Shown: piece after piece, positions 8,944 through 46,006 of the stretch
Layout of the letters: the number at the start of each line of letters is the position of its first letter
Numbering within the stretch: the stretch's first letter is position 1
NCBI GenBank assembly: GCA_021432635.1
Contig: MU270029.1
Location: 62,001 to 126,000, forward strand
DNA length: 64,000 bases
Source of the DNA: Thozetella sp. PMI_491
Lineage: Eukaryota > Ascomycota > Sordariomycetes > Chaetosphaeriales > Chaetosphaeriaceae
Direction: 5' to 3'
Program-made: the position numbers and the translations under genes
The notes under the pieces: generated by a model
The model's input: only the letters and a program-made list of their open reading frames with translations
Databases searched by the model: none
Told to the model about the DNA's origin: nothing

Positions 8944-10006
8944 ATGGTCGTTGTAGCGGTAGCTGGAGGAACGGGGGACATGGGCCGGCTTATCGTCGCC
9001 GCCCTTCTCCAGCGAAACCAGCACGAGGTCTATGTGCTGTCTCGAAGAGTAAGCAATATCTTATTTGTACTCAAACTTGCGGTCGTAACAGTACATATGG
9101 TATTCATCCTCCTTACACGGGCTGGGCGCATAGATCCCTCAAGACACGGCGCCTCGCATCTCACCCCTTTCCTCAAAAGAGTACACGCCTGTCGTCCAGA
9201 CCAACTACTCCTCCGAGGAGGAGTTGAAGCAATTACTTGTCGAGCGAAAGGTGCATACCGTTATTTGCACCTTCGCCATCGACTTTGAGAATGCGAGCAG
9301 CGCACAGCTGAGGCTGATCCGCGCTGCCAACGCCGCCACCTGTGTCCAGCGCTTCATTCCGTCCGAGTTCAACGTCGACTATGACCAAGGAGACGATGTC
9401 CTGCCATACCCAGAGAAACGCTTCCATACAGTCGCACGGCGGGAGCTGGAAAAGACCCGCCTCGAGTTCACCTATATCTACCCGGGCATGTTCATGGACT
9501 ACTACGGAATGCCACACATCGAGACGCACCTTCGGCAGCTGCCATCCATGGTCCAGGGCAACACGGCGTACATCATTGGCAACGGAAACACGAATATCGC
9601 CATGTCGTACACCAAAGACGTAGCCCGTTATACCGCCCTGGCGCTCGAGCTACCGAAATGGCCAAGGGTGCTCAGCATTGTGGCTTCCACTGTGACCATG
9701 AACCGACTTGTGGAGCTAATTGAGCGCAGCACCGGCCGTAAGTTGGAGGTTGTCCATCAGTCCATCGCAGAGGCCAAGAAGAACCCATCCATGGGGCTCG
9801 AGGCCAGTGATCCAGTAGTCCAGCAGTTCCCGGGCGGCGTAGAACAGCTCGGAGCTCTTATGGTGGACCTCTCAGCTTCGATGGAGTTTGGTGCCTACGA
9901 CTTCTCTAAGATCGAAAGTCTGGATATGGTTGCTGAGTTCGAGGGAAAGACGGAGGCGCCTATGCGGATCGAGGAGTTGCTGGAAATGGCCTGGAGCGGC
10001 CACTGA
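8944..10006 (+). CDS. NmrA-like NAD(P)-binding protein (isoflavone-reductase-like)
   Basis: Two exons, 8944-9048 and 9182-10006 (133-bp intron), 309 aa. The N-terminal Rossmann motif is GGTGDMG (residues 8-14). A typical RFIPSEFNVDY block follows, and then YTKDVARYTALAL in the second half, as in atypical short-chain reductases of the NmrA/isoflavone reductase family. Members act either as NAD(P)H-dependent reductases or as redox-sensing regulators. The catalytic lysine expected in true isoflavone reductases is not obvious to me. It converges on a Zn2Cys6 gene with only 38 bp between the stop codons. Substrate unknown. Confidence 0.85.
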
Positions 10007-10044
10007 GCGTTGGTATCCACGCAATAGATGTGAGATATAAGAAT

Positions 10045-11696
10045 CTACACAAGTATTTGCGTTTGGCCAATGTTCTGCATGATGTCCTGCCATCGTTCCG
10101 GCACCGCCTGTCCATGACTGACGAGGTCCCGGTGGTTCCACACCTCTTCGAGGATGCGCTCTCCACTCTTGGAGTTGTACATGCCCAGGAGATGCATGCC
10201 CTCCCACCGCGATCGAATGTAATCTCGCTGATCCTCGACGTCCAGCTCCGCACCGATGACTACCAAGCACCATCCGAGGTTCGCACCTGGGCCGATGGCA
10301 TCAGGCACAAAGGTGAGGAGCGAGAGGGCCTTCTGCAACGATTCCTGCATCTGATCCGTCAGAGGCTCCTCGGGGCCGTGTACAATGCGGTAAACGAAGA
10401 TGTGTGAGGCGTGCCGAAAGATCTCGGCCGTGGCTACCATGCGTTGACGTAGATTTTCCTTATCCAAGTCAACGGTGGCCGCGTACGGATGGCGAGTGCT
10501 CCGGCACAAGATTCCTACCGCCGGGTCGGACTCCGGCGACATCGCCGTCGCTCGGATTTTCTCCTGCAGCGCATCGGCCCGCCTACGAACTTCTTCGGTG
10601 GCCGGGTGTCCGTTTCTCGATTCTGCACATAGTTCGGCCGCAGCCCACTACCAATGATATTAGCTCATTACTGCAGCACTTGGATTCATCGACGCCGCAC
10701 CATCAATTTAGGTAGCTTTGCCGAGCAACCAAAGAAGGCATCGATCGAGTTATCATGGCCTTCCATCCAAGACTCAAGCTCCGCCATCGCTGGCGAGCCC
10801 TCATTCAGTGCACACTGTGTATCAAGCATGCACACCCATGTCTTGAGGAACGGGTCGAGGTCAGAACAGTCTCCGCGGGAATGGACCCAGCCTCGGATGG
10901 CATCATAGTGTGCCCTCCAGCGAATCGACCCAGAAAAGACCTCAAATGACACAAGGCAGAGCATTGCCGCCAGCGTAACGGGGCTGCTGACGAGCTCGGG
11001 GCGGCTCAGCCGGTCGCTAAGTCCCTTGATAGCGGCTCGTAGGTATTTGCGCGAGACAGTCTCGGTCGTATTCTGCCACCGTCCGTGATGCGATGCCGCT
11101 ACAGCCAGCATGGCGTTCATCAGCGCCGGCTCCTCCATAGCCATGGGGAGCATTGACCGGTATCCATTGCCGTCGTAGTCGATGGCGAGAGCGAGCCTCG
11201 CAACGTTGCCTATGCCTTATCGTCAGTTCTGAGGCACCACGGACGTGAGCCAAGAAGCGCCGCTGCAGGGAGTAGGCACCTAGGTAATGTTGCATGAAGA
11301 AGCTCTCCTCTGGCGGCAGCGCGAGAGAAGACATCGACAGGCTTAGCCGCGGATCCGCGCGCGGTCGTGGGCTCGTCTCCTTGCCGGTGCTGGGCCGTCG
11401 TCGGGGACGAGGCGGGAGGCTCGCGGGCCACTCAAGTCGGACCCCATATCCGCCGCAGCGGACGCTTCTCTCGTCGCATGTTTTGCAATCTACGATAAAG
11501 CCCGACGGCCAGTTCAGTAATCCGCCCATATCTCACGCGACGAATGTTGCAACGACTTACGGGGCAGGGCTCCATCGCATTGGCGATTCCGCCGGAGGCA
11601 GGTCCAACACGCGCCCTCCGTGTTGACCTTCTCGGCATTCGGGAGTGTCTTATCCATATGCTTCTCGCGCCCGCCCCGGGCACTTGCGACCATCAA
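10045..11696 (-). CDS. Zn(II)2Cys6 transcription factor (TF2)
   Basis: Four exons: 11696-11561, 11489-11280, 11209-10701 and 10647-10045. From the in-frame ATG at 11657 the product is 472 aa; longer starts at 11696 and 11693 are possible. The zinc cluster is split by the first intron and reads CWTCLRRNRQCDGALP then HCKTCDERSVRCGGYGVRLEWP when joined; the GYGVRLxWP tail is typical of the ACR-2-like regulator family. The second intron restores FMQHYLG-NVARLAL, and the middle region (AMLAVAASHHGRW, LCLVSFEVFSG) is the fungal-specific transcription factor domain 2 type. Nuclear DNA-binding role inferred from the family. It lies tandem with and downstream of TF3 and may help control the catabolic genes on its right. 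Confidence 0.85.
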
Positions 11697-12112: not shown

Positions 12113-14773
12113 TTATGTATTATACATGTGGTGGTCATGGCCGAATGTGCGAGAGAGGGTGTCTACCCAGTCCGAGCCCCCGGCCTGAAGCTGATCCATC
12201 ATGCTTGCCCAAACTGAGACATCTATATGTTCACCGAGCCCGCCGAGATCAAAGGTCTGCTCAAAGGCAAGCGATGGAGTCGCCACTTCTTGCCTACGCA
12301 ATGAGGCGCCTGTGTCGGCCCTCTGCGTCGCTAGGGTGGACGATTCCAATCTTCCATCTAATATGGTTGAGAAGACTGCTCCTGGGTACAGGAAGCTATC
12401 TTCCAACGGAATGGAGCTGCCCATGGCTAAACTAGGCTGGCTAGACAATCCAACACCTTTGGGCTCATGCGGCATGATGGCCTGCTCGGGCGTGAGATCC
12501 TGTTGGGGTAAACCCTGGGGAACGCTAGACGGCCTCCGCTCCTGAGCAGGAGGCCTCTCGTCTTCAAATGATATCTCATCTGCGAGATGGCCTGCGTATA
12601 TCTGCATCCAGCTGCCTGACTTGGGGGAAGTAGTACTGTCCCCCACGTTGGTACTACTATTTCCTCCGATTGAGAGCGCATTGGCTCCTGTCCCCGAGGC
12701 ATCAGATCGGATAACCGTTGGCCTTGGCTCCAATTCTTGGAGGGTTACAAATGGTGGCTCCTCCAGATCGTCGAAACGATTGAAGTAGCCTTTAAACGCC
12801 TCTGGTGTCGCCGCAGAGACCTGCCTCGATGTTGATTTCACATCATGGGCACGGAAGACCGTGTCGATCTGCAAGAGCGTTCAGATCTTGTAAATCGGAG
12901 CAACTAATGCCTCGCAGGCAGAGTTGATGCTTGGAGAGCGACTCACCCACGTGCGCGCAGGACTAAAGAAGTTTCGGAGAAGTCCCAATACTGTGAAGGA
13001 CAGTTTAAGATTCTCAACAACAGTTTGGTCGTAGGGCTCGATACTCCGGTGAAGCTGGTTGATCAGCACGAACGCGCTTTGCATGCATGCAAAGCCAATC
13101 CATCGAGAATACTGCAGATTTTTGTGTTCAGCCCTCACTCCCTTGAGGGTACGGCAAAGCGGTCCTCTTACCGTGAAGAAACCGCCACGTGAAAGTAGCC
13201 CGCGGCATTGAGTGCAGATAGCCGCAGCACTGGCTTCGCAGGTACGAATTCTCTCTTCAAGGAATAAAGAGGGTGCGAATGGAAAGTTGACCGTTGTCAC
13301 GGGGGAACCTTCTTGGTCCCCTCTTGCGCGGACTGGGATGGGTAAAAAGGTCCGGTTTAGCATGATGACACAAACGTGCCATAGAAGGCCGACGAGTGTG
13401 TCCTCGTCGGCCTCCTCGGTGCCTTGCCTTACCAATGCATGTATAGACTGATCGATAGCTTGAGAAGAGGGTCTTTTCAGCTGCCAGAGTATTATCTTGT
13501 CCAGTTGTATTTGAAGAAGCCGAAAGGGAGATTCCGGCCTCCATGGCGTATTTTCGGGTCCCATCAGGTCGCTCCAGCATAGGTTTTGAATCCGGAGAAG
13601 CAGCAGCAGCAAATCGGGAATACAAGACGTCTGGCTCAACGGCTTATTTAGGTCAACATCGGATATACGGGTCCTATTGATTGAAGGTGTTTGCTGCAGA
13701 CTTGGATGGCCGATGCTATGGCAAAGTTCTGTGAGCAAGAGATATCGTTCCGCCCCGTCGAGAGCCATCACCTCACTAGAAAGGAGGTCTCTTCTTGTCC
13801 TGGCCAGCTGCAGTAGGCCCTTCGTCAAGGCTGCGCTCACAAAATCAGCAGGGGGCTCGGGGGATAGCATGAAGGTGGTACGACAAACCAATGTCCATCC
13901 ACGCGCGATTTCCGCGCCCTTGGTTCGCTTCATCCTCGATGAGGAAACAGTACGTCAGTATCCGGTCGGAATCGACTATCGTCTCAGCTGAAGCCTGCAG
14001 CCCGGCGCGAGCACCTCGCTCCAGCTGCAGTGCGAGGCCGCCTGCGGCCGCTTGCCTAGCCATTCGATGAACTGAGTAACGCAGATGGCACGCGCACACC
14101 GCCAGAACCAGCGCCTTCGAACAGGTGCCATCTTGCAGCTGTGCTAAAAACTCCGACGGCGGCAAAAGTGACCGCAGCTGTGCGCTACTGTGGTGCCAGT
14201 ACAGCTCGATGAGATGGCAGATGACGTTCACCTCGGTGATGATACCCTGCTCGCTCGCCAGTAGCTTCTCTACGTACGGCCGCCAGGTGGATAGTGGTGG
14301 TATCTCCCCGGCTTGCTGGCTGTCTTCGTCGTCCGACTCCGAATCGACAGTGATGCCGGAGGTCGAAGGTGCGGCGTCGGACGGTTCAACAACTATAGTA
14401 TCAGCGGACTCTGCGGCCGAGGGTCTCCGCGGTGCAGGGAAAAGGGGTCGAATGACGGGCTCGGCCGGCTGTCTTGGCCGAGGGCCTCGGCGGGCGCGGT
14501 TCTTCTCATCAAATGTGCAGGTGCGCTGGTTTGCTGCGCAGTACGTGCACGGGAGCGAGCCGCTACATTTCGCCTGAAAGGAACGACTTAGTTAGCAATA
14601 AAAACCTCAGATTGGCGACAGTGAGTGAGGCTTACCCTCCGCTGTCGACACAGGTCGCATGCCACTGTGACCTTTCTCCTGTGTGGGCCGTACACACCGG
14701 GTTGGACCCGCGCCGGAGCCGCAGGGTGTGGCGGCTGGGCCTGCACCACCCCTGTGCCGCCAGTAGAAGCCAT
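12113..14773 (-). CDS. Zn(II)2Cys6 transcription factor (TF3)
   Basis: Four exons: 14773-14636, 14573-13889, 13830-12947 and 12868-12113, giving 820 aa. Exon 1 ends in CDLCRQRR and exon 2 starts AKCSGSLPCTYC, so the first intron (62 bp) interrupts the binuclear zinc cluster at the classic position; the cluster ends in RTCTFDEKNR. An acidic linker (DSESDDED) follows. The middle region is the fungal_trans domain, whose frame is restored by a 58-bp intron (RAWMDIALTKGLLQLAR). The C-terminal about 250 residues are low in similarity signal and Ser/Pro-rich, as in activation regions. The gene is divergent from the flavin amine oxidase and shares its 453-bp promoter, which makes it the best candidate for the pathway regulator; that is inference. 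Confidence 0.85.
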
Positions 14774-15226: not shown

Positions 15227-16984
15227 ATGGTTTACAGTAGAGACGGATTCACTTGGACACCGTCTGCCGGTCTACGTGAGGGACTTCCCACAATTGGAGT
15301 TATCGACCCTCCAACGTACGTGGCCCCCCTTGCCGGGGACCAGCCTTACGATGTGGTTGTCATTGGAGCAGGATATGCTGGTCTCGTGGCCACGCGGGAC
15401 TTGACTACCCAAGGTGTGTGTAGTGTGGCTATGTGATGCTAGCTGTAAAGTACTCGATAGAACCGGAAGCGTTGACAGCATTTCGGCAGGCAAGCGAGTT
15501 CTCCTACTCGAAGGGCGCGATCGCTTGGGCGGCCGGACCTGGCACGCCACTATCAACGGCTTCAACTATGAGATGGGCGGCACTTGGATACACTGGCACA
15601 TGCCTCACGTCTACCGTGAGGTCTCATTGTACGGATTGCACAATGAATGGCTTGTGACGCAGAACCCGGGTGGGAAGGAGGACTACTTCACGCTTACCGC
15701 TGGGGACAAGCAGTGGAACCTCACCCATGAAGAAGAGGTCAGTACAAGAACTACTCGAGCGTGGCCGGCATATACTGACAGCGACCTAGGAAGCCATTAT
15801 TGGCAAAGTTTGGGAAAAGTTCTGCGACCTGGACGGGAACAAGCTCAGCCAGACATGGAAGTACGCGTTCGGCACTAGTCAATCGCCGAAGCTGATGGCC
15901 GAATGGGACAAAATGAGCTGCCGTGATCGTCTCGAGCAGATTCGAGACGAGCTCAGCCCCAAAGAGATTGCTGTATTGGAGGCATTCCTCTACCAAATGG
16001 GCGGATCGTCTCTTGAGCGCATGGGGTTGCTTAATGCACTTCATTGGTGGATTCTCGGCTCGCACAAGCCCACCGGCCTCAACGACATCGCCCTACACAC
16101 GCGTCTGCGTTGCGGGAACAGCGAGCTGCACCGGCGGATCTTTGAGCATGCCAAGTCGACGGGAAACCTCTCTTACAGCTTTGATTCTGCAGTGACCCAG
16201 ATTCAGGATGATGGCATGGTGACGATCACCACGCGGGACGGGGCAACCTGGAAAGCAAAGTCGGTTATCTGCACCGTTCCCCTGAATGTGCTCTCCTCTA
16301 TCCAATTCAACCCGCCCCTGTCCCCGGGAAAGCAGGCTGCAGCCGCCGAGGGGCAGGTGAACCTGTGCAACAAGGTGCATATTGATCTCAATGGACCAGA
16401 CTACCTCTCTTGGACCTCCTTTTCCTCCCCTGGGAAGGGTCTGATCTGCGCCATCGGCGACAGGCTCACGCCAGCCGACAATTCCCACCTAGTTGCATTC
16501 GGGCCGGACCCGGCGATATCTAATGGCATTGCCCTCAAGGATATTGACGCGGTCAAAGAGGGCTTCCTTGGTCTTCTACCCAAGGCCAAGAGGGATGAGG
16601 TCATCCTGAACCGAATTGTAAGCCCGATCAAGCAAAACTCCCAAGATGTCCTGTCGCTAACGCGAAGCGCTTTATCAGGTGTCCCACGACTGGAACAATG
16701 ATGAGTTCGCCAAGGGGACGTGGTGCTATCTGCCTCCGAACTTCCTGACGAGCTACCTCGAGGAGCTGCAAAAGCCTCACGGAAACGTCTTCTTCGCCAG
16801 CGGCGACTGGTCCGATGGCTGGCGGGGTTGGATCGATGGCGCATGCCAGGCTGGCATGCAGGCTGCGCACCAAGTCATTCAACTTCAGAACCAGACTCTA
16901 AAATCGAGTCCTGTCACAAATGGTATGACGAATGGCCATGTTAAGGGAGTGGAGCAGGTCAAAATCAATGGCATTACGGCTTAG
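15227..16984 (+). CDS. Flavin-containing amine oxidase (MAO-N-like)
   Basis: Four exons (15227-15413, 15490-15737, 15790-16617, 16679-16984) give 522 aa. Family role: FAD-dependent oxidative deamination of a primary amine to an imine/aldehyde, H2O2 and ammonia. Visible features are the dinucleotide motif VIGAGYAGL near residues 45-53, the FAD-binding GRDRLGGRTW with GGTWIHW after it, and the C-terminal FASGDWSDGWRGWIDGA that lines the flavin. As in Aspergillus MAO-N, no obvious covalent-flavin cysteine motif (SGGCY) is present. No SKL-type peroxisomal terminus is seen (it ends in NGITA). It is divergent from TF3 and convergent with a Rid/YjgF gene, whose family often handles imine/enamine products of amine-oxidising enzymes. 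The substrate is probably an arylalkyl amine, given the downstream aromatic enzymes. Confidence 0.88.
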
Positions 16985-17185: not shown

Positions 17186-17693
17186 TCAGTTTGGTAAAAA
17201 TGCTTCCACCGTGATTTCGATGTGCAGTCCCGGGAAAGCCAGACCCTTGACCTCGACGCCGGTCCATGTTGGCTTCGTGTTTTTGAGATACTTCCTCGCC
17301 GTTGGAATAACCACATCTGCTGCCTTCACGCCGTCATTCACCTCAAAGGTCTTAATCTGGATATGACAAGGCAGATATTAGTAACTACAAGACGTACCGG
17401 GAGAACCACGTTACACTTGCCTTGTATACGTACTCCCAGGCATCTTCACCAAGTCCGCAGGCTTTCAGAGCGCGTTCAACATGGTCGAATGCCTCGACCA
17501 CTTCCTCCTCTAGACTTGTTGGGATCGTCCCGTCCAATCTGATGCCAAGTTGGCCGCCTACCACGACAGTCTTTGCATTTGGGGGCACGATAACAGCATG
17601 TGAGATGCCGAACATTTCTGCAGGTTGTTCACCACCCGGCCAATTAACAAACCGGAAACCGTGCTGCTCGAGCTTCGACTTGGGTGCGGCCAT
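17186..17693 (-). CDS. Rid/YjgF/UK114-family protein
   Basis: Two exons, 17693-17421 and 17356-17186, give 147 aa. The intron has a GC donor (AAG/GCAAGT) and a normal CCAG acceptor. This is the only joining that keeps the frame and yields a continuous YjgF domain (VVVGGQLGIRL, VEAFDHVERALKACG, WEYVYK-IKTFEV, GVEVKGLAFPGLHIEITVEAFLPN). Rid proteins are trimeric; the RidA subgroup hydrolyses reactive enamines/imines. The position of the RidA catalytic arginine (PARxxVEV) here reads PTWTGVEV, with Trp at about residue 122, so canonical deaminase activity is doubtful and another Rid subgroup is likely. It converges with the amine oxidase gene (201 bp between stops). Confidence 0.82.
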
Positions 17694-18133: not shown

Positions 18134-19704
18134 TTACTCCTTCTTCCTCTTAATGACCACATCAAGTCCTTCTTGCATTGTAAACCAGAAATTCTCGAAG
18201 CGATAGCCTTTTCCTCCATCCTTCAACTCCATATCAAATTCCAGAAGCAGCGTGGGGATCAACTTGGTCGTCTCCATCAGGCTAATCCATCGGCCACTGC
18301 ACGTATGGGCGCCATGGCCGAACGTCAGGAAGGCGCGGTTCATGGCCTTCAGCTGGTCTTCTCCAGTTTGAGATGGCAGCCATCTCTCTGGCCAGAACCG
18401 CTCCGGGCTGGGGAAGACCTCTGGGTCGCGGTGAACAATCCAGGGGTTGAGTCCGACCTCAGCACCCGCCGGAAGCTTGTGGCCACAGATAACAGCGCCG
18501 CCCGGTGGAACGATGCGCCCTAGGATCATGCCGACAGAAGGGTGCAGCCGCATACCCTCCTTGATGACCGCCTTGAGGTACTCAATATTGTTCGCCTCCG
18601 TATATCCGACCGGTACCTTCAAGCCCGCGTCTTTAATCTCTTTCAGAAGCTTTTGCTTTACATCTGGATGTCGTAGAAGGTAGTAAATGACGCCGCGCAT
18701 GGCTGTAGCCGTGGTGTCGCTCCCGGCTGTGGAGTTTCCCCACGCATGTGTCATAATCTCGCGGTCGTCTAGAGATTTCGGGTTGGACTTCTGGTTGAAG
18801 ATGAGGCGCTGCAGAAAGGTCATATATGCTGGTTCTTCCGACATACTCCGCGCCTTGTCCAGCTCGGCATTTACCACGTTGATCGTATCAGCTGAGCCCA
18901 ATGGTTGGTCGCTTCCGAAGAGCAAGGTCGCGAAGAACTGATGACGTAGAAGGTACCTGTGTGTCCACGATATCTGGCCAAACTGGACCAGAGTCAGCAA
19001 GCGCCCCCAGGTATAGTTTACAAGCCCCGGTTACTTACGACTGCCATGTACCAGCTCGCAATTTTCATCATCTTGTGTATCCCAAGCACATCGCCATTGG
19101 ACATGTAGTCAAAATCGCGACCAAATGTCAGCGCACAAACAGCGTCCATGGTATAGTTGGCAATTTCCGCCCCCAGATCGACCGATCCCTTCTTGTCAGC
19201 GGCCTCTCCCAGTCTCCGAAGGAGACGCTCTGTCACTGGTTCGATCCACGGTTCCATCTGCACAAGCCCGTTCATAGAATACGCATTGGCGGCATTCCGT
19301 TTCATCCGAGTATGAAGCTCGCGGTCATTCAAAATAAATGGATCCGGGATGAGGCCCTGCTCATCGTATGCTTCCGACAACTCGTAGAAGCCGGATTTCT
19401 GAAATTTGGTGCCGATACCGTAGAGCTGATTGACTTCCGCCTGGTCCGAGACGGAGAAGATGGTAGGGGCCAGTCGTACGATCTTGCCATACTTTCTGTG
19501 CAGGACGATGTCATCTTCGTGACATCTGCCGCGCCATACAGAGAGGACTCTTGGGATGGGCGAGACGCTGTTGAGAAAGGGGCCGGGGACGCGATTCAGT
19601 CCTTGGCGGAAGCGCTGGAATAACAGATACGCAAAGAATGTCGCAGGCAGCGCGAGGAGCCAGTATTCGCGCAGGAGCCCGAGGACTGTCGCAGATTGGG
19701 CCAT
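18134..19704 (-). CDS. Cytochrome P450 monooxygenase (P450-1)
   Basis: Two exons, 19704-19039 and 18982-18134 (56-bp intron), give 504 aa. The N-terminal membrane anchor spans about residues 13-28, followed by the Pro-rich hinge RVPGPF. The I-helix motif AGSDTT lies near residue 302, the K-helix ExxR is EGMR near 361, and the haem-binding loop is FGHGAHTCSGR with Cys near 449. Overall it resembles the pisatin-demethylase-like fungal P450s (NYTMDAVCALTFG, RDPEVFPSPERFWPERW). Reaction: O2/NADPH-dependent hydroxylation or dealkylation of a small aromatic/lipophilic compound at the ER. It sits between the Rid gene and a cupin gene. The haem loop is not that of the CYP504 phenylacetate hydroxylases I know, so the substrate cannot be read off. 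Confidence 0.87.
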
Positions 19705-35544: not shown

Positions 35545-37211
35545 CTAGTGTGTTCTGCAAGATATATACACATCCATCCCTTCTTGTCTTACAAACCATG
35601 AGTTTCGAATCTTCCAGTGTGTATCCGGGACAACAAAGCTTAGCTAGAGAACGATAGTGTGTTAGTCGGGCCTGACAGTAAGCAGTTGTAGCAGGGAAGG
35701 TACCTTGTATCTCCAAAAGAGACTGGGGAGCAATTTGTAGATCTCCAACAGGCTGATGTTCTTCCCAATGCAAGTCCTGTGGCCTTTTCCGAAAGTGAAC
35801 GTCGCTCCGTTCATTACCTTTAATCGGGTTTGGTAATCTTCATCGCTCTCGCCCTGGGTCTGCAGCCATCTTTCCGGTCGGAACCGGTCCACATCGGTTC
35901 CAAAGCTTACTCGGTCTCGATGCATAACCCAAGGAGACGCTCCTACGATTGTTCCTGCCGGCAGCATAGTCCCGTCGGACAGCCGAAGGCCCTCTGTCGG
36001 GACTAGTCTCTCCAGGATAAGTCCTACGGCAGGATGCAGCCGCAGAGCCTCCTGGACAACAGCTTGGAAGTATGGCAGTTGCTGGCATTCGCGCCAAGTA
36101 GCTGGCTCACTGAGTCTGCCTGCCGCATGTGCCTCATCCAACTCTTCGAGGATCTTGTCATACACATTCGGATGCTTGAGGGTATAGTACAGGATAGCTC
36201 GGAGGGAGATGGCGGTAGTGTCGGACCCAGCAAACATGTTCGTGATCATGTAAGACAGGACCTGTGCATCATCCACCGTGTCTGGGTGGGTCTCCTTGGC
36301 TCGGAGGAAACGGTCAACGAAGTCGAGCGTATACGAAACGGGCTGCTTCTCGCTGGAGCTGATCTTCTCTTGCTCTGATAGCCGCTCGTTTAGCTTCTGC
36401 CTAGCAAAGCGAGCCACCGGACCTGTAGGGCGAGCAATCCGCGCCCATATTGGGTTCTTCTTCAGCCAATAGTCCAGCCATGGCATCTGCCCTATCGATG
36501 CGTTATAGTCCATGGCTTGGTTGAGCTGCTCGATGATACCGTCAACATCACGGCCATCTTTGAGAAATCCGAACGATGAGCTGCAGGTCAACTCGCCAAT
36601 GACGTCGAACGCGTAGTATTGCAGCCACTCAAACATCGGGCATGGAACGTGATGGTTGGCAAAGCGGACATCTAGCTGGTGGAATAGACTGCGGATTGTG
36701 CGATCCACAAGAGGCTCATACTCTACCAACGTAGTCATAGAGTAAGCATTTGCCACGGGACGCTTGATGCGGGCGTGCCATGCCTCATTGAGCGTGGTGA
36801 AGAGCGTTTCCGTAGCTTTCCCATTCGCCATCTGCTGCTGGACAGCATAAAATTCGCTCTACACCCACGGTCCCACGTTAACAGGAGCGTATAGCTAGAC
36901 ATATTAGACGCCAAGCAAACCTTTGCAAATCCACGCTTGACTCCGTAGACCCTGTTCACGTCATCCATGTTTTTAATGCTAACGACGCGCGGGCCTAGGC
37001 GCACATTATCGCCGTATTTCTCGTGGAGCAAGATCAAGCTCTCGTGGTTGTAGCCGCCGGAAACGTTGAAGAAACGGTATAAATCGGTAAACTTGGCTGC
37101 GAACGGCCCGGGGATGTTTCTTGCTCCGGCAGCACGGAGGTTACCCACGACATGAAATACTGCGAGGGCCGCAGCCGCTCCAAGAAGAAGATACACCGTC
37201 TCCAAAGCCAT
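35545..37211 (-). CDS. Cytochrome P450 monooxygenase (P450-2)
   Basis: Three exons (37211-36921, 36858-35704, 35643-35545) give 514 aa. The last 99-bp exon is easily missed; it supplies the typical P450 ending (HWKIRNSWFVRQEGMDVYI). Features are a hydrophobic anchor in residues 5-25, the hinge NIPGPFAAKFTD, the I-helix motif AGSDTT near 306, the K-helix EALR near 368, and the haem loop FGKGHRTCIGK with Cys near 458. It belongs to the same broad pisatin-demethylase-like set as P450-1 but is clearly different in sequence. It shares a 455-bp promoter, rich in TTCCGA elements, with the divergent aldehyde dehydrogenase, suggesting that both act in one pathway. Confidence 0.88.
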
Positions 37212-37666: not shown

Positions 37667-39356
37667 ATGGCGCAGGTTGAGCTGAAGGGCATTGGAGGGA
37701 AGCCTGTTTCCGGTATGTATAGGCCTCCAGAGAAGCTTACAGGGGCACCCGTCAATCGCACATTGAAAGCTCGAGGCCAACGAAAGCACGCTAGTAAATA
37801 CCGGTCTCTTCATCGGCAACGAGTTCGTCCCAGCGATCGGCGGAGAAACATTGCCTACCGAGAACCCGGCCAGCGGGGAACTCCTCGCCCACGTTTCGGC
37901 GGCGCAGTCCAGGGACGTCGATGCCGCCGTTGCGTCATCTCAAGCCGCATTTGAGGGGGAGTGGAGTAAGACGTTGCCCGCACAGAGGGGAGAGCTGCTC
38001 CGAAAGCTCTCCGAACTCATCGAGAGAGACGCCGACGAGCTAGCCAGCCTCGAGGCACTTGATGTCGGTATCCTGTTCGGCGAATCGAAAGGCTTGCATA
38101 TCGCGCAGGCCATCGAGACACTCCGCCACTTCAGCGGCTGGGCAGACAAAATCACAGGGCAGCTGCTGAACATTCCGCAAGGCTATGCGTATACTCGCCG
38201 GCAGCCCCTTGGCGTTTGCGGTGCCATTGTGCCCTGGAACTCACCGCTGTGGGTTGCCTTCTCTGCATTGTGCATCGGAGTGCGTGTGGGCTAAACTGTG
38301 TAGCATGATAACCATCTGGAAGCTCGCTCCAGCCATCGCGGCAGGCAACACCTTGATCATCAAGACCCCAGAGGCCACTCCTCTGTATGGACAGAAGCTG
38401 GCTAGCCTAGTAAAGGAAGCTGGGTTCCCTCCCGGAGTCATCAATATCCTCTGCGGGTTGGGACCGGTCGCCGGGCAGGCACTAGCGGAGCACCCGAAGG
38501 TGAAGAAGATATCTTTCACAGGAAGCGCGCTGGTCGGTCGGAAAGTTTTGCGCGCCGCCGCAGATACGAACTTCAAGAAAGTGACACTGGAACTGGGAGG
38601 CAAAGGTCCTTCCATCGTTTTCCCCGATGCCGACATCAACAACGCTCTGTTCTGGACGACTCTCGGAATCACAGCCAACAATGGACAAGTCTGCGTGGCG
38701 GGATCCCGCATCTACGTCCACTCGAGTATATACGACTCCTTCCTGCTGGCATTTGCCGAGAAGCTCGTGCAAAGCAGTGTGGGCGATCCCCTACAGCCAG
38801 AGACGACCAAGGGTCCGGTCGTGAACGCGACGCAGAAGAAGAAGATCCTTGGCTACATCGAGCAAGCCAAGGCATCAGGCATCCGACTGCTGGCTGGCGG
38901 CGAACCCATCGCGGGCAATGGTCATTTCGTTCCGAGTACAGCGTTTGCAGACGTCCCGGACGATGCCGCCATCATGCAGGAGGAAATCTTTGGCCCAGTT
39001 GCTGTGAGTTAGTCCCAACCCATGAGAAGAACGTGTGCCAGCTAACATGTGCTACTCCTGCAAAGTCCATTACCAAGTTCGACAAAGAGAGCGAGGTCAT
39101 TACCAAGGCCAACGCGTCTGAGTACGGCCTCAGCGCGGCCGTGTTCACGAACGACGTGAGCCGCGCTGAGAGAGTTTCATCCAGACTAGAGACTGGCCAG
39201 GTCACAGTAAACTGCTGGGGATTGCTTCACGCAAACACACCGTTTGGAGGCGTCAAGCAGTCCGGATTCGGTCGAGACCTTGGTGAAGAGTCGCTGGATG
39301 GATGGCTGACTACCAAGACCGTCAAGTACAATATCTTGCCTTCGGGAGAAGAGTAG
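37667..39356 (+). CDS. NAD(P)-dependent aldehyde dehydrogenase
   Basis: Four exons (37667-37712, 37795-38248, 38304-39003, 39066-39356) give 496 aa, the normal family length. The spliced product reads VPWNSPL-MITIWKLAPAIAAGN across intron 2. It contains the catalytic glutamate in LELGGKGP near residue 262 and the catalytic cysteine in NNGQVCVAGSR near 296 (the position of ALDH Cys302), with EEIFGPV and FGGVKQSGFGRD later on. No targeting signal is seen (it ends LPSGEE). The reaction is oxidation of an aldehyde to the carboxylic acid with NAD(P)+. Downstream of an amine oxidase this would convert an arylacetaldehyde to an arylacetic acid; that link is inference. It is divergent from P450-2. 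Confidence 0.9.
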
Positions 39357-39525: not shown

Positions 39526-40923
39526 TTAAACCTTGTCGTTATCGACTATAACCGCTTGTGGGTGCTTGAAGCGTCGCCTCAACGGCATCCAAGACTCGGC
39601 ATTGTACTTTGGCTGAACTTTGCGACATTCCTCCAACGCCCATTCCGTAACTCCGATCATCAGTGGGCTCTCGAACATGAAGGCCATGCTTCCTTCCCCA
39701 ACCTTGATAGGTTTTAGGTCCGCGGCGCTTGCCTTGGCATGGGTCTCGGCGTCCGGTCCGTGGGCGCTCATCACATTATGAAGGCTGGCTCCCGCGGCTT
39801 GGAATCCCCCTCCGGTTTTAGCATCGTACTCCCCCATGATGAGGCCCATGAATTCCGACATGGTGTTTCGGTGGTACCAAGGAGGGCGGAATGTGTCTTC
39901 CTGCACCAGCCAGCGAGGCGGGAAGATGACGAAATCGGCTTGGGGGTTGACCAGGACGGTGTAAATGCTGGGATCGGGATGATCGAAGCTGATACTGCCG
40001 ATCGCATTGAAGCGACCCAAGTCGTACTTGTATGGATAGTAGTTGCCATGCCATCCAACTACGTCAAACGGAGTGTGGTCTTGCTTGGCGCTGAACATAT
40101 TATTGTTGTATTTGCAAAAGACCGTCCAGCCCTGCGGCTGCACGTCGAGATCTTCGAAGGATGCTACCGGAGCCTGAAAGTCTCGTGAATTTGCCAGGCC
40201 ATTGGACCCAATAGGGCCGAGCTCGGGGAGCTTAAAGTGACCGTCATATATCTCCAGGATGTAGCCTCGGGCCGCTCCTTCGGGAAGCTCAACGCGGTAT
40301 TTGATGCCTCTAGGGAGGACAACAATCTCGTTCGGACGCCCAAGTATTCTGCCCAGCTCGGTCTGAATATCAAGGACACCGTGCTGGATAACGATGAGAA
40401 AATCGCCGTCGGAAGAGTAGAAAGCATCGCGAGAAGACATGGACGTGCCCGCGGCGAAAATGTAAATCCCTAGGCCGGATTTCACAGAAGGGGTTCCCAC
40501 ACCACCGAGCTGCTTCAAGGAATGGACCCAATCAGCCTTTTCGTTCAGGTCGAACGGATCCCACCGAAGCTGTAGAGGAACATGGTGGATGCGCTCCACT
40601 GTCTCGTGGCTTTGGTGAGCTTCAAACGGTAGATGCGCGGCGGAAGGCAGGATTCTGTACACCCAGGTCTGGAAGTTGTCGCTGCGAAGGGCAGTAAAGG
40701 CCGTGCCAGAGAGCTTTTCCGCATAGAGTCCGTGAGCAGGATTCTGTGGTGAGTTTGCGCCAATGGGTAAGGTACCGGAAAGCGCCTCGCTCCTATGCGA
40801 GTATACACGCGATTAGTTGGTTCAATGCTTCATACTTAGGCACGGGGCAACTAACTCGTGGTAGCATTGAAATCCATTCAGATACTCGTATTTCTCCGGC
40901 GCGGAGAAGTGGGTGACAGGCAT
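39526..40923 (-). CDS. hmgA: Homogentisate 1,2-dioxygenase
   Basis: Two exons, 40923-40856 and 40792-39526 (63-bp intron), 444 aa, the usual length. It opens the ring of homogentisate to maleylacetoacetate using Fe(II) and O2. Family blocks are KYEYLNGF at the start, [26 protein letters not shown] (with the active-site His) and [18 protein letters not shown], which contains the Fe ligands His (about 330) and Glu (about 336). The third ligand His sits in [10 protein letters not shown] (about 366). Canonical enzymes read PPYYHRNCMSEF and TPHGPD, so the loop has Tyr-to-Trp and Cys-to-Thr changes while all ligands are kept. It is divergent from fumarylacetoacetase, sharing a 633-bp promoter. The absence of 4-hydroxyphenylpyruvate dioxygenase nearby suggests a paralogue dedicated to this cluster. 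Confidence 0.93.
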
Positions 40924-41556
40924 GATGGCGATGTTTGACTGGTAGGGAGCTACGTAGATAAGGTATGATGGGTATTTAATGTACTAGAAGCAGGCTAGGG
41001 ACCATTTGCAGCAATGAGACTAGGTAAAACAGATATGGATATTGTACTTCTTTACGGCCAGGCATACATACGTGGTGGTGTTCAGTCTGCCCCAGATCTA
41101 TACTCTCCTTGCTCTAGTGTGAGAACTTGGTAGTGGCTATGATCAGACCACCCTCTCTAGCCTACTTCCTTTCTCTACTATGACCATTACATCCAGCCAA
41201 TTTTTCCGAATACCAATGACGCTTGAAACTAGAGCTTCCAGAGATGTGGGTTATGGATACCTTGGCTTGGCCCAGCAAGAGGAGCCCCGTTCTGCGGGAA
41301 AATTGCCAATTGGGCAGATCGAAGCTAGCTGCTCCACGCAGCGTCCAAGTCTGTAGGACCAAAGAATACTCGTAATACATGAACAATTACAATATAGATG
41401 CTCGTGAATAGCAGTATTATTGTCCATCTATCCCATGCTACCCCAAAATTGTGTCACCATAATTACGGCGTTAGGATTCTGCCTCCAAAGCTTAGTTTGT
41501 CAACCACCACCACGCAACTTACTCTATACATAACAGGCGCCGTAGAGATCATAACA
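40924..41556. promoter_or_regulatory. Divergent promoter hmgA / fahA
   Basis: 633 bp between divergent homogentisate dioxygenase and fumarylacetoacetase genes. One TTCCGAA heptamer at 41204-41210 matches the element repeated in the neighbouring catabolic promoters. An open frame runs upstream of the fahA ATG from 41398, but its product has no family resemblance. Confidence 0.5.
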
Positions 41557-42855
41557 ATGAGCAGTAGACCCTGGCTCAATGTTGCAGCTTCCTCGCCATT
41601 TTCTTTAGCCAATATTCCATTCGGCATCATTTCGACTGTCGCCCAACCGAGGCCGCGTCCTGCGACCATCATCGGCGACCATGTTCTTGACCTCCAGGTC
41701 TTTTCGGAGAAGAATGGCTTCTCCGGCTTAGATGCCATCCAGCCTCACATAGGGGTGTTCTCTCAGCCTTCTCTCAATGCTTTCGCCGCCCTCGGCCGGG
41801 CGGTGCACTCGGCCGTCCGGCTCTACCTGCAAGATATTTTCTCTCAGGGGACTCGGAACCCCCAGCTTCTCCGGGACAACGATGCGCTGAGGCAAGAGGC
41901 AATCGTGCCGGTTAAGGAGGCCAGACTACACCTCCCAATGGAGATAGGGGATTACACAGATTTCTTCGCCGGCATCAATCATGCTTTCACAGTCGGATCT
42001 CTTTTCCGCGGCCCTCAGAACGCCCTGCAGCCCAACTACAAGCACCTTCCGGTTGCTTACCACGGGCGAGCCTCCTCCGTCGTGGTATCTGGCACTGAGA
42101 TCCGACGTCCGTGGGGTCAGATATTGGCCAACCCGGCAGCGGAACCGAAAGTGCCAACTTTTACCCCGTGCCGGCGATTAGATATTGAGCTAGAACTCGG
42201 CGCCTTTGTTTGCAAAGCGAACCCACTAGGCCAGCCAATCCGTGTCGACGAGGCCGAGCAGAGCATATTTGGCTACGTTCTAGTCAACGACTGGTCGGCT
42301 CGTGATATACAGGTCTGGGAATACGTGCCTCTTGGGCCATTCAATGCCAAGAACTTTGCTACCACCATCAGCCCATGGGTAGTGCTTCCTGACGCCCTGG
42401 CACCGTTTGCCACGGATGGGATTCGGAACGACGTCGAGCTCCTGCCGTACCTAAAAGAGAGCCGGGAGAAGAATCAGTACGATATCAAGCTGCGAGTTGA
42501 GCTGACCACTAGTAAGGGGGATACCACCGTGATTTCAGAGACGAGCGGGAAGTATCTCGTCTGGTCTTTCGCCCAGATGCTGGCGCATCATACCATTTCA
42601 GGATGCAACATGCGCCCTGGAGATCTGCTTGGAAGTGGTACGATCAGCGGGACGGACGACAGATCCCGTGGCAGCTTGTTAGAGCAAAATGGGGGCGGTA
42701 AGAATCCTATCAAGCTAGCAGGCGGAGAGGAAAGGATATTCCTGCAGGACGGCGATGTAGTTACAATTTACGGCATCTGTGGCTCAGAGGACCAAGGATA
42801 TGTTGGGTTTGGAGAATGCTCGGGCAAGATACTGGAAGCGGTCAAGTTCACATAG
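41557..42855 (+). CDS. fahA: Fumarylacetoacetase
   Basis: Single exon from the ATG at 41557 (MSSRPWLNVA), 432 aa; an earlier in-frame ATG at 41398 would add 53 unrelated residues. It hydrolyses fumarylacetoacetate to fumarate and acetoacetate, the last step of homogentisate breakdown. Visible signature blocks are GDYTDFFAGINHA with the metal Asp135 and catalytic His, LPVAYHGRASSVVVSG, RRLDIELELGAF (metal Glu pair), VNDWSARDIQVWEYVPLGPF and GTISGTDD. Most fumarylacetoacetases have Tyr after DF in the first block (YTDFY); here it is Phe137. The equivalent Tyr contacts the substrate carboxylate in the mammalian enzyme, so substrate preference may differ. It is divergent from hmgA. A maleylacetoacetate isomerase gene, often adjacent in fungi, is missing from this window. 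Confidence 0.93.
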   Translation: MSSRPWLNVAASSPFSLANIPFGIISTVAQPRPRPATIIGDHVLDLQVFSEKNGFSGLDAIQPHIGVFSQPSLNAFAALGRAVHSAVRLYLQDIFSQGTRNPQLLRDNDALRQEAIVPVKEARLHLPMEIGDYTDFFAGINHAFTVGSLFRGPQNALQPNYKHLPVAYHGRASSVVVSGTEIRRPWGQILANPAAEPKVPTFTPCRRLDIELELGAFVCKANPLGQPIRVDEAEQSIFGYVLVNDWSARDIQVWEYVPLGPFNAKNFATTISPWVVLPDALAPFATDGIRNDVELLPYLKESREKNQYDIKLRVELTTSKGDTTVISETSGKYLVWSFAQMLAHHTISGCNMRPGDLLGSGTISGTDDRSRGSLLEQNGGGKNPIKLAGGEERIFLQDGDVVTIYGICGSEDQGYVGFGECSGKILEAVKFT

Positions 42856-43999
42856 CGGTATTCAGTTTACGGCTAGATTACGCGACGAAGGTAGGTTTTC
42901 ATGCTATTGCCGCACTTCCAAGTATAATAGATTCCTTCAGAAACCTGGATCTTTCAGTGTTGACTTGGTTAGCACTATACAATCCTTCTAAGCCGTCCTT
43001 TCAGGCCGTCTGGAAACAGATACATGCCGAAGTGGAACATTGAGCACAATTATTCTACAGACCTGCGGTTCTAACGCAGAAGAGTCTTAGTTCGGCAGGG
43101 GGTGTTGACGCAACCACCCAAGCAAAACTATTTCCAACATGCCAAAGTCAGCGACGAAGACTGAAGTGAAAGCCCGGACCATTAAAAGTATGTCCGGGTG
43201 CGTGCGCCAATAATTCTAAAGAAAAGCAGCCCAGCTCTTTAGTGCCTGGTTGGAATAGTCGGGTCATCCCGCGAAACCTGAGAAATAAACAATCGGCAGT
43301 CTCGGCCACAGGCCTTCCACTATAGCCAAAGTAGAGAAAGACCTCCAAGTTTTACAGAGGGGCTGAGAACTAGAAGTTGACCGGTCGACTGACCGGTCGA
43401 CTGTGGGGCTAACCCGAAAGCCGTTGCCGAAGCGGGCCGAAAGCCGCGGCCGGAAGCCGGCTAACACGCCATGTTTTCAGGGCGGTAGGATCTTGGGGAC
43501 AACGCTTACAACTGGCTAACGTGTTCAATAACAATACCTAGCGCAATCGATATTTCTAGCGAACCAGCGAGCCGGGATGAAGGGTGTGGATCGTATAGAT
43601 CGTCTAGGCCAGCGGGGATGGCAGATGGGACCGGTAGCAACTGGGACAAATGCCTTGCATTCCTTCGCCTAAAGCACTAGTCAGGGCGCCGCACCCCCGG
43701 GATATCCGCCCTATTGTACGGGGCGCCGGTCGGGAGTCGGCAATCACGAACGGCAAGTGGAACGGGGCGTAACTCCACTCTCCGTGCCCCTTTTATGTGA
43801 CACGCTGCCCCAGCCATTCGAGACGATCTGCCTGTTTCGCACGCAGACAAACGTAGATACATTAGCCAAGGTTCCTGCGACACGTTGGGACCCGGTAGGA
43901 GGCTCCACGCAACTCTAAAATATCCCCAAGCCCGGGCTCAATTCTAGAGACTGAAGGCGGCCCGAAGGTCTTTGTCGCTAGCAAGGATACTGGGTTAAA
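42856..43999. other. Long intergenic region between fahA and the CoA ligase
   Basis: 1.14 kb without a recognisable gene. I looked specifically for a glutathione-transferase-like maleylacetoacetate isomerase and found none on either strand. A 12-bp tandem duplication lies at 43378-43403. Confidence 0.55.
43378..43403. repeat. 12-bp tandem duplication (TGACCGGTCGAC)
   Basis: Two exact adjacent copies of TGACCGGTCGAC followed by a partial third (TG). The unit holds two small palindromes (ACCGGT and GTCGAC). It could be a paired CGG-type binding site upstream of the CoA ligase, or simply slippage. Confidence 0.6.
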
Positions 44000-46006
44000 A
44001 TGGTCTTCACGCCGCCTTTTTGGGTGCCTCAGTTGCCCTTCTGTAAGATCACAGACTCTCGCCAATGGACACGTCCAGCTAGCTAAACGGTATGCAGTGC
44101 CGCCCGACTCTATATCCATTGCCGAGTTCTTGAATGATGAGCGGTATGGTCGCCAGCCTTTCAAGACGTCCAGGAATACCTTCACATGTGGAGTAACCGG
44201 GAGGACATATTCGCCCGCGCAGCTCCGAGAGCGAGTTGATTCTATCGCAAGATCGTTCTCCCGCCGCTTCCAATGGGCGCCCAACGAAGGCACCCCTTGG
44301 GAGAAGGTTTTGGCCATCTTTTCCCTCAACGCGGTAGGCTTCCCACGATTTCTCCATGGTGAAAGTCAAGAGTACTTACGCTCTCGCTCAGGTCGACTAC
44401 GTCCCCGTTGCTCATGCGGTGCATCGCTTGTCAGGCATTGTCACGCCCGCAAATGCCGTGTTCTCGGCTGAGGAGCTGGAGGTGCAGCTCAGGTCTTCTG
44501 GTGCCACCGCCCTAGTTACATGCCGGCCATTGCTAGAAACGGCTCTCAAAGCTGCGAGGGCTGTCCGCATTCCCGATGACAGAATATTCGTCATGGAGGT
44601 GGCCGGCGATTCAGCACCCGTGCCTTTTGCTTCCATTGAGGCACTAGCCTCCGAGGGGGAAAGCCTAGCTGCACTAGAGCCTCTGCAGTGGTCGAAAGGT
44701 CAGGGTGCGAGACAACCCGCCTTTCTCTGCTATTCGAGTGGAACGTCCGGATTGCCCGTACGTCACCTACTCTGATCCTTTCTGCTTGGTGCATGCGCTA
44801 ACATTTGCATAGAAAGGAGTTATGATCTCACACCATAATGTGATCGCCAACATGATGCAGTTAACGGCAATGGAGAGCATCGGGAGGAGGAAGTTTGGCG
44901 TGCAGACACAAGTTGAGCTCGGCTTGCTGCCATTCAGCCATATCTACGGATTGGTGTTCATCACCCACATGGCCTCCTACCGAGGGGACGAAGTCATTGT
45001 GCTCCCAAAATTCGAGTTTAAATCTTTTCTTCGAGCCATCCAAAGGTTCAGGATTGAGCAACTCCTGCTTGTAAGAGACCCAGCGATCTGATGACCGCTC
45101 ATCAACTGACCATCATGCAGGTACCGCCAATTATCATCCAGTTGACCCGCCAGAAAGAAGAACTTGCGAAGTACGATCTCAGCAGTGTGCGATGTGTCTA
45201 CACAGCTGCCGCTCCGTTGGGGAAAGAAACCGCCGATGAACTTCTAGCCATTTTCCCTAAGTGGAATCTCACACAGGGATACGGACTCACCGAAACCAGC
45301 CCCGTGGTCTCTTCGACAGGCGAGAACGACATGTTCTTCGGCTCGGCGGGCTCTCTCCTCCCTGGCACAATAGCGAAGGTAATCGGTCTCGACGGTAAAG
45401 AGGTGACCGAGCATGACAAGCCTGGCGAGCTCCTCGTCCAGTCGCCAGCCGTCACGCTAGGTTACCTAAACAATGAGAAAGCGACAGCAGAGACGTTCAT
45501 CTTTGACAATGATGGTCGGTGGATTCGCACCGGAGACGAAGTGTGCATCAGGAAAGCGCCCTCTGGGCATGAACATTTGGTCATCCTCGACAGGATCAAG
45601 GAGCTGATCAAGGTCAAAGTGAGTAATGCCAAACAATATAGTTGCGTATATCTATTTTATTGACGTATCTCAGGGACACCAAGTTGCTCCCGCCGAACTG
45701 GAAGCTCATCTTCTTTCACATCCCGCCGTGCACGACTGTGCAGTCATTCAGGTACCTGATAGCCACTCAGGGGAGCTGCCTAAGGCGTACGTAGTAAAGT
45801 CATCCTCGGCTCAGACGAAGAGCGACGATGAAGTGGCTGAGTCCATCCACAAGCACGTCAAAGACCACAAGGCCCATTATAAGTGGTTGAAGGGCGGTAT
45901 CGAGTTCATCGATATCATCCCCAAGAGCCCGTCCGGAAAGATTCTTCGCAGGGTATTGCGCGACAAGGAGAAGGAGACTCGGAGGCTGGCCAAGTCGAAA
46001 CTCTAA
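44000..46006 (+). CDS. 4-coumarate-CoA-ligase-like acyl-CoA synthetase, peroxisomal
   Basis: Six exons (44000-44042, 44098-44333, 44392-44757, 44813-45070, 45121-45618, 45674-46006) give 577 aa. The tiny first exon restores the family start TPPFWVPQLPF. ANL-superfamily motifs are the P-loop YSSGTSGLPKG (rebuilt across an intron), the A5 motif GYGLTETSP, the GRWIRTGDEV region and the C-terminal PKSPSGKILRR with its lysine. The protein ends in SKL, a canonical peroxisomal PTS1. It activates an aromatic or fatty acid as the AMP ester and then the CoA thioester. In this context it may start peroxisomal side-chain shortening of a phenylpropanoid or arylalkanoic acid before ring cleavage. The substrate is not readable from sequence. 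Confidence 0.9.

Follow-up and report, generated by a model that had tools for sequence, protein, structure and literature searches.

Gene content of the block

The window analysed here is a stretch of 64,000 nucleotides of Thozetella sp. PMI_491 contig MU270029.1, which is labelled C15 in our genome-wide comparisons. Spliced gene models together with Pfam scans place 17 genes between positions 8,980 and 46,006 (Table 1), and on its right side the block is followed by a gene model that contains MCM3. The initial annotation had described about eighteen genes starting at 8,944; the block stands, with 17 genes and a first model that begins at 8,980. An earlier gene-finder setting was dropped, as its models were over-spliced. 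Of 124 ORFs of ≥120 aa listed for the window, the Pfam scan covered 40, along with three hand-spliced proteins, and together with the spliced models it bears out the gene families named previously. These are an NmrA-like protein, two Zn2Cys6 factors, a flavin amine oxidase, a Rid/L-PSP protein, two P450s, two FAD_binding_3 monooxygenases (FMOs), an MFS carrier, a DUF6579 protein, two APC permeases, an aldehyde dehydrogenase and an AMP-binding ligase, as well as HgmA and FahA, each with its N and C domains.

Table 1. Features of the block, in window positions.
Feature	Position	Strand	Evidence and remarks
NmrA-like NAD(P)-binding protein	8980..10006	+	PF05368 E 3.8e-16; left edge
Zn2Cys6 transcription factor with Fungal_trans_2 domain	10045..11657	-	PF11951 E 9e-21
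Second Zn2Cys6 transcription factor	12113..14773	-	Ends approximate; missed by gene finder, read from frames
MAO-N-like flavin amine oxidase	15227..16984	+	Spliced model
Rid/L-PSP family protein	17186..17693	-	PF01042 37.4 bits; imine/enamine deaminase candidate
P450 a	18134..19704	-	PF00067 E 1.2e-51 on C-terminal exon
MFS carrier	21322..22691	+	PF07690 E 2.3e-33
Class A FAD monooxygenase FMO1	23390..24804	+	PF01494
DUF6579 protein	25909..27308	-	PF20219 E 3.9e-16
APC1 amino-acid/amine permease	28028..29990	-	N-terminus (~30 kb) approximate; model stops 29418
APC2 amino-acid/amine permease	31233..32813	-	PF13520 E 1.2e-20
Class A FAD monooxygenase FMO2	33865..35318	+	PF01494
P450 b	35662..37211	-	PF00067 E 6.9e-57
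Aldehyde dehydrogenase	37667..39356	+	PF00171 E 6.6e-86
HmgA homogentisate 1,2-dioxygenase (predicted)	39526..40923	-	PF20510 + PF04209
Divergent hmgA/fahA promoter region	40924..41556		
FahA fumarylacetoacetate hydrolase	41557..42855	+	PF01557 + PF09298
4CL-like CoA ligase	43900..46006	+	Start approximate (~43.9 kb; model start 44356); PF00501

At the left edge, membership of the NmrA-like protein in the block is uncertain; at another locus, C29, an NmrA-like gene is likewise found beside P450, FMO and APC genes. The hand-spliced N-terminal parts of the first and second Zn2Cys6 factors match PF00172 (Zn_clus) with 31 and 31.5 bits, respectively. Among solved structures the amine oxidase is closest to MAO-N (2vvl; 411 bits, E 5e-122, residues 4-489 of 522), and its gene lies about 22.5 kb from hmgA. 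The aldehyde dehydrogenase gives 502 bits to 7kqv, and the CoA ligase gives 244 and 235 bits to the 4-coumarate-CoA ligases 3tsy and 3a9u, its model ending in SKL, a predicted peroxisomal signal. In APC1 the PF13520 match (E 4.1e-12) falls on a single exon and the upstream frames were read by eye; this permease shares 38% with APC2 and 43% with the APC permease of locus C31. The carrier that was initially called MCT-type is an MFS carrier (Pfam MFS_1 and Sugar_tr), and its monocarboxylate label, taken from a motif, is putative. The DUF6579 gene interrupts the block, between its two halves. Its protein, which is possibly outside the pathway, has two matches genome-wide, and its AlphaFold model (no alignment, unspliced frame) had a pLDDT of 35 and was not usable.

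FMO1 and FMO2 are similar to MAK1/vanillate 1-hydroxylase-like class A enzymes over most of their length. The closest solved structure to FMO1 is 7cp6 (MAK1-like; 249 bits), with 129 bits to vanillate 1-hydroxylase (8x38) and 119 bits to 4-hydroxybenzoate decarboxylase (8gsm); FMO2 gives 204 bits to 7cp6 and 91 bits to 8x38, and shares 65% with the FMO of C31 and 51% with FMO1. MAK1 is a phytoalexin-detoxifying enzyme. Going by their names, the vanillate and 4-hydroxybenzoate enzymes presumably attack the ring where the side chain is attached. FMO1 also matches the FAD monooxygenase 6pvf and 7kpq (CtdE), which we take to be tailoring enzymes of fungal alkaloid pathways.

The two P450s share 35% with each other and 22-25% with the P450 of C27; compared with the P450s that neighbour the hmgA-fahA pairs of C27 and C45, they are only about 22-31% identical, over partial length. 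A haem motif that we assume to be CYP504-like is present in the C27 and C45 P450s and in neither window P450, and from their sequences the latter do not look CYP504-like. Of 103 matches, the three relatives of P450 a with the highest bit scores, besides itself, are those at C29 and C76 and P450 b; all three have an FMO from the cluster's family no more than 10 kb away.

The ring-cleavage genes and their paralogues

HmgA gives 455 bits to the human enzyme 1ey2 and retains H292, H335, E341, Y350, K353, H365 and H371. We take H335, E341 and H371 to be the Fe ligands, Y350 and K353 to be contacts of the homogentisate carboxylate, and H292, Y350, K353 and H365 to be homogentisate-binding. There are nine HmgA-like loci in the genome; the four presumed binding residues are all retained in the window, C27, C26 and C45, and not all retained in the other five (C20, C107, C92, C113 and C49). 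The window HmgA alone is without seven loop residues after TVL, which are present in the other eight paralogues and in two reference enzymes. We predict that it is a homogentisate 1,2-dioxygenase, with the loop deletion leaving doubt on its activity. It is 68% identical to the C27 HmgA, its sister in the tree with a bootstrap of only 65.

FahA gives 416 bits to fumarylacetoacetase 9sqs and retains 14 of the 15 positions which we assume to be catalytic; the exception, Y128F, is common to the FahA proteins of the window, C27 and C45. These same three of the nine HmgA loci have the divergent hmgA-fahA arrangement, and a fahA gene within 3 kb of hmgA is found at three of nine loci versus 0.007 expected, the distance limit here, as in all tests of co-localisation, having been set after the matches were known. 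No 8-mer is common to the three hmgA-fahA promoters. In a scan of promoter CGG dyads (100 dyads tested, 200 shuffles), CGG-N20-CGG occurred 13 times versus 3.85 and CGG-N4-CGG 11 times versus 3.43, a signal too weak for use as a regulatory motif; no motif in the block promoters was outstanding by the dyad scan and 8-mer comparison.

Other genes of the homogentisate route lie outside the block. The single genome match of hppD is at C4:1216314. For maiA there is none on C15 and there are 20 matches in the genome, two of them over the cut-off (C50 and C16). Since these matches lie elsewhere, the block is not self-sufficient.

Recurrence of modules within the genome

Our search for parts of the gene set that recur as modules in the genome was partly positive. 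The HmgA loci hold 102 gene models, of which 24 are in the window; 31 of the 78 others were Pfam-scanned, together with six models at C29 and C31, and the remaining HmgA-locus models were only compared with the window proteins by BLAST. The P values are Poisson, with midpoints entered by hand. In the analysis that gave the counts for fahA near hmgA and at 30 kb, the APC list was a lower bound (20 of 152 candidates scored); the later tests used 46 pooled APC loci.

At C27, hmgA-fahA is surrounded by a copper amine oxidase, a P450, an FMO and two APC permeases; its upstream enzymes and those of the window are not orthologues. The genome-wide lists, themselves lower bounds, show no amine oxidase or APC near the C45 pair. 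The link between hmgA-fahA and an amine oxidase is found outside the window in one of two pairs (P 0.063). An amine oxidase lies within 30 kb at three of the nine HmgA loci (P 0.0036). The third is C49, where WD40, kinase and other genes lie near these two; as no cluster is visible there, this count is given no weight.

Amine oxidases within 10 kb of APC permeases number four of 40 genes versus 0.51 expected, and two of the four share a locus; they do not include the pair in the window, which is ~12 kb apart. Of eight FMO1-family loci, hand-chosen from 70 matches, four have an APC gene within 6 kb (outside the window 2/6, P 9e-4). Outside the window, two loci, C29 and C76, combine the cluster's FMO and P450 families, and two have FMO with APC, with an APC-FMO pair at C31. 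No HmgA, FahA or amine oxidase appears on the C29, C76 and C31 contigs in the genome-wide lists.

These P450-FMO and APC-FMO loci favour the explanation that the block consists of at least two independent neighbouring sets with no common substrate: a left and middle set of P450, FMO and permease genes for the detoxification of plant compounds, and a right set of aldehyde dehydrogenase, hmgA, fahA and ligase. The DUF6579 gene that separates the halves, and the MAK1-like structure as the closest solved relative of FMO1, point in the same direction. Yet FMO2 and P450 b directly adjoin the aldehyde dehydrogenase and hmgA, and C27 unites amine oxidase, APC, P450 and FMO genes with hmgA-fahA. We regard the two-set explanation as a real, though minor, possibility.

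A possible amine route and known systems

The reading that we prefer, for which we see the chances as evenly balanced, is that the 17-gene block is a composite catabolic cluster, predicted to lead from an imported aromatic amine to homogentisate-type ring cleavage. The APC permeases would import an amine of the phenylethylamine or tyramine type, which the MAO-N-like oxidase, aided by the Rid protein, would convert to the aldehyde, and the aldehyde dehydrogenase would give the arylacetate. Homogentisate may then be reached through hydroxylation of the ring, or removal of O-/N-alkyl groups, by the FMOs and P450s. For tyramine, the most natural step would be that an FMO attacks the carbon carrying the side chain, para to the OH, and the side chain migrates, as in 4-hydroxyphenylacetate 1-hydroxylase chemistry. 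HmgA would open the homogentisate ring, and an isomerase encoded elsewhere in the genome together with FahA would yield fumarate and acetoacetate. We infer the order of steps, the substrate, the way homogentisate would be made and the roles of each FMO and P450 and of the CoA ligase.

The gene families, the HmgA and FahA residues and the module recurrence can be read directly from the DNA. Homogentisate-type cleavage as the end of a catabolic route, as initially proposed, is supported because of these residues, the MAO-N-like oxidase and the partial recurrence at C27, and catabolism also because no biosynthetic backbone gene was seen: the claim that PKS, NRPS and terpene cyclase genes are missing holds in Pfam for the 40 of 124 window ORFs scanned. 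It is also favoured by the amine oxidases and FMO1-family genes found near APC genes and by the presumed ring position at which the named FMO relatives act. The proposal that all genes form one pathway is weakened by the maiA and hppD matches elsewhere, the P450s that do not look CYP504-like and the DUF6579 interruption. The HmgA loop deletion, the distance from amine oxidase to hmgA, the single amine-oxidase link outside the window, the non-orthologous enzymes of C27, the C45 pair and the promoters without an outstanding motif also speak against the preferred reading. More tentatively, and rather improbably, the block may hold a CYP504-free amine route in which a MAK1/VhyA-type FMO hydroxylates 4-hydroxyphenylacetate at C1 and the side chain migrates, with hmgA-fahA as a plug-in joined to a flavin amine oxidase front end at C15 and to a copper one at C27.

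Another hypothesis is a guaiacyl route, in which vanillylamine or a ferulate amide gives vanillate, an FMO gives methoxyhydroquinone and the HmgA homologue acts MhdA-like. The ligase and aldehyde dehydrogenase suit ferulate, and vanillate 1-hydroxylase 8x38 is matched by FMO1 and FMO2 (129 and 91 bits), but HmgA retains K353 and Y350, the presumed carboxylate contacts. In Aspergillus niger the FAD enzyme VhyA and MhdA, annotated as a homogentisate dioxygenase, process vanillate, yet in the accessible text the steps that follow cleavage fall to a reductase and the esterase OmeA, and FahA is not mentioned (PMC8336404). Overall this route is unlikely. Least probable, and very doubtful, is a biosynthetic or pigment cluster with hmgA and fahA paralogues recruited for product tailoring: FMO1 matches the presumed alkaloid-tailoring 6pvf and 7kpq (CtdE), and there are two P450s and an NmrA-like protein, but no PKS, NRPS or terpene cyclase is present in the 40 scanned ORFs, and HmgA and FahA, which retain their catalytic residues, serve to destroy the ring.

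The preferred amine reading can be compared with several systems, as described in the accessible parts of the papers cited. The fungal tyrosine degradation cluster is hppD-hmgX-hmgA-fahA-maiA-hmgR, with some types lacking maiA; it shares adjoining hmgA and fahA and Zn2Cys6-type regulators with the window block, which lacks hppD and maiA and has upstream an amine oxidase, Rid protein, aldehyde dehydrogenase, FMOs, P450s and permeases (PMC3914699). In Aspergillus, phenylacetate and hydroxyphenylacetate (fusel acid) hydroxylases feed homogentisate, a similar hydroxylation of arylacetates; phacA and phacB are named there as P450 genes, whereas the window has FMOs, other P450s and an amine oxidase front end (PMC7842363). 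The A. niger vanillate route, vdhA-vhyA-mhdA-omeA with omeA neighbouring mhdA, likewise combines an aldehyde dehydrogenase, an FAD hydroxylase and an HmgA-like dioxygenase; amine oxidase, APC and FahA, all in the window, are unmentioned in the accessible text (PMC8336404). A bacterial precedent for a flavin hydroxylase gene beside cleavage genes is mhaAB of Burkholderia LB400, which makes homogentisate and lies beside hmg genes, although it is a two-component enzyme for 3-hydroxyphenylacetate (PMC3053370). The black yeasts R. mackenziei (PMC5844311) and E. lecanii-corni (PMC8709033) have several HmgA copies, with consecutive or near-consecutive locus numbers of HmgA-FahA or CYP504-HmgA, compared with nine copies here.

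No amine-to-homogentisate fungal cluster was found among the papers listed by searches of one open-access library, nor in the accessible texts on C. immunda on toluene (PMC5595782), where homogentisate dioxygenase was without significant regulation, on A. niger (review, PMC12388069) and on A. oryzae (PMC6105210). A 2026 paper on a fungal aromatics database names eight central intermediates in its accessible part, and no word of its text begins with amine, tyramine or phenylacet (PMC13094099).

The nine HmgA-like genes exceed both the one to four per genome of one survey (PMC8336404) and the six copies of E. lecanii-corni (PMC8709033), as far as the accessible parts of these papers tell. The peripheral steps that lead from aromatic amines to homogentisate seem to have been little described at the gene level in fungi, and if our reading is true the block offers a concrete enzyme set for testing. 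If the CYP504-free route is true, tyramine-type amines would enter homogentisate directly.

Gene content of the block

The window belongs to a 72.3 Mb genome of 157 contigs, which its introns, Zn2Cys6 factors and gene families suggest is that of a filamentous fungus. Gene models were obtained with a small trained gene finder, and families were assigned by Pfam on 40 window ORFs and three spliced proteins. The families of the initial annotation were recovered, but the block contains 17 genes rather than about eighteen and starts at 8,980 rather than 8944. In order, it encodes an NmrA-like protein, two Zn2Cys6 factors, a MAO-N-like amine oxidase, a Rid protein, P450 a, an MFS carrier, the FAD monooxygenase FMO1, a DUF6579 protein, the permeases APC1 and APC2, a second monooxygenase (FMO2), P450 b, an aldehyde dehydrogenase, HmgA, FahA and a CoA ligase ending in SKL. 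The left neighbours, which were not counted as members, are a carboxylesterase, a sugar-type transporter, a transcription factor and a phosphodiesterase (Pfam). The carboxylesterase gene could belong to the block if the imported form is an amide or ester. To the right, after a 2.7 kb gap, the next model bears MCM3 and is probably two genes or a mis-join.

The nearest solved structure to the amine oxidase is MAO-N (411 bits), and its best-scoring genome relative, on C43, is 35% identical. The CoA ligase is 4CL-like, and the aldehyde dehydrogenase is a typical member of the ALDH family. Both FMOs group with the MAK1-like monooxygenase 7cp6, with decarboxylative vanillate 1-hydroxylase and 4-hydroxybenzoate decarboxylase as more distant relatives.

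Features of the window and of related loci (C, contig)
Feature	Coordinates	Observation
Window	C15:62001-126000
Carboxylesterase	7176-8399	single exon in model; immediately left of block
Block	8,980-46,006
DUF6579	25909-27308	sole other genome match on C10
MCM3 model	48692-52649	~0.8 kb unmatched exon fused to MCM3
HmgA-like	C20:217912-221545	iron ligands kept; P450 adjoins
HmgA-like	C107:158614-162425	iron ligands kept; P450 adjoins
HmgA-like	C113:118661-123100	iron ligands kept; P450 adjoins
HmgA-like	C92:161464-165456	iron ligands kept; FMO-like gene adjoins
HmgA-like	C49:453973-455400	also W330; neighbours WD40, Mtf2, kinase; amine oxidase ~15 kb off
hmgA-fahA	C27:138906-161676	two APC permeases, copper amine oxidase, P450, SDR, FMO
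hmgA-fahA	C45:378704-381927	HmgA H269E, FahA Y244A; P450 and hydrolase near
APC, MAO-type	C43:185978-189877	no HmgA; permease 59% identical to one of C27
APC, MAO-types	C2:1337241-1343849	no HmgA; from search coordinates only

Ring-cleavage enzymes

The window HmgA scores 455 bits against the human enzyme and 410 bits against a second homogentisate dioxygenase, 3zds. It retains H292, H335, E341, Y350, K353, H365 and H371 (human numbering), as do its paralogues on C27, C26 and C45. H335, E341 and H371 are kept in all nine HmgA-like proteins of the genome. Those of C20, C107, C92 and C113 have Q292, S353 and E365 and, judged by their residues, seem to form a dioxygenase subfamily of their own that acts on a different substrate; that of C49 has E292, Q350 and N365. 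A caveat is that between TVL and DFVIFPP the window HmgA lacks seven residues that are present in the other ten aligned sequences, and a splicing artefact was ruled out because the region is one open exon.

The window FahA scores 416 bits against the fumarylacetoacetase 9sqs. It keeps 14 of 15 checked positions, which we take to be the relevant ones (D126, H133, R142, Y159, E199, E201, D233, R237, Q240, Y244, K253, T257, T350 and E364), the sole change being Y128F. This change is common to the three hmgA-paired copies and is absent from the maiA-paired copy of C50, which points to a single lineage for the paired copies (87% support in a tree of only four fungal sequences and one reference). 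The C45 HmgA and FahA are possibly drifting or specialised.

The canonical tyrosine genes sit outside the block. Two of 20 genome matches to maiA are above the cut-off, on C50 (fahA adjacent) and C16, none of the 20 is on C15, and the one hppD match is on C4; the block therefore depends on an isomerase in trans.

Recurrence within the genome

A divergent fahA lies within 3 kb of hmgA at three of the nine HmgA loci (expected 0.007). C27 is a second amine-type locus; its HmgA and FahA are 68% and 62.5% identical to those of the window, and its upstream enzymes are not orthologous. At C45, amine oxidase and APC genes are absent from the genome-wide lists, which are lower bounds. The hmgA-fahA-adjacent P450s of C27 and C45 share 42% identity, with haem motifs that we take to be CYP504-like, and the window P450s are ~22-31% identical to them in alignments that cover between one third and three quarters of the length.

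Co-localisation was assessed by Poisson P values, with distance limits set after the hits were seen. The hmgA-fahA pairs are near an amine oxidase in two of three cases (outside the window one of two, P 0.063) and near an APC gene likewise in two of three (one of two, P 0.036). FMO-family genes are near an APC gene at four of eight loci chosen from 70 matches (outside, two of six, P 9e-4), and P450 a and its best three relatives of 103 matches are all near the FMO family (outside, two of two, P 5.5e-6). Four of 40 amine oxidases lie within 10 kb of an APC gene, two of them at C2; the window pair, ~12 kb apart, is not counted.

FMO2 resembles FMO1 less closely than it does the C31 FMO, and P450 b is likewise less similar to P450 a than the C29 P450 is. 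A recent tandem duplication therefore seems an unlikely origin for the two P450/FMO/APC sets of the window.

One cluster or two adjacent sets

Published comparisons include tyrosine-degradation clusters (PMC3914699), black-yeast CYP504/HmgA/FahA loci (PMC5844311, PMC8709033), A. niger VhyA/MhdA (PMC8336404), A. terreus fusel acids (PMC7842363), bacterial mhaAB-hmg (PMC3053370) and a 2026 database paper on fungal aromatics (PMC13094099). The available portions of these papers describe no amine-oxidase/FMO/hmgA/fahA cluster, and the matches listed by an open-access literature search included no fungal amine-to-homogentisate cluster.

In the strongest alternative, which we consider rather improbable, a detoxification set of P450, FMO and permease genes would simply adjoin a homogentisate set. 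The DUF6579 gene in mid-block fits such a division, as do similar sets without HmgA. On C29, genes for an APC, an FMO with 53% identity to FMO1 and a P450 with 42% identity to P450 a are grouped with an NmrA-like gene. On C31, an FMO that is 65% identical to FMO2 accompanies an APC that is 43% identical to APC1. On C76, ~7.5 kb separates an FMO relative from a relative of P450 a (50-58% and 39-49% by exon, respectively). The C27 locus, however, speaks against it.

The simplest account, to which we give an even chance, is a composite catabolic cluster. The gene families, the HmgA and FahA residues and the recurrence of modules within the genome partly support the catabolic cluster first proposed, but not as a self-contained set, with maiA and hppD elsewhere. 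We infer the order of steps, the substrate and the regiochemistry: in such a cluster, the imported substrate would have its amine and then the resulting aldehyde oxidised, after which the ring would be hydroxylated and, finally, opened by homogentisate-type cleavage.
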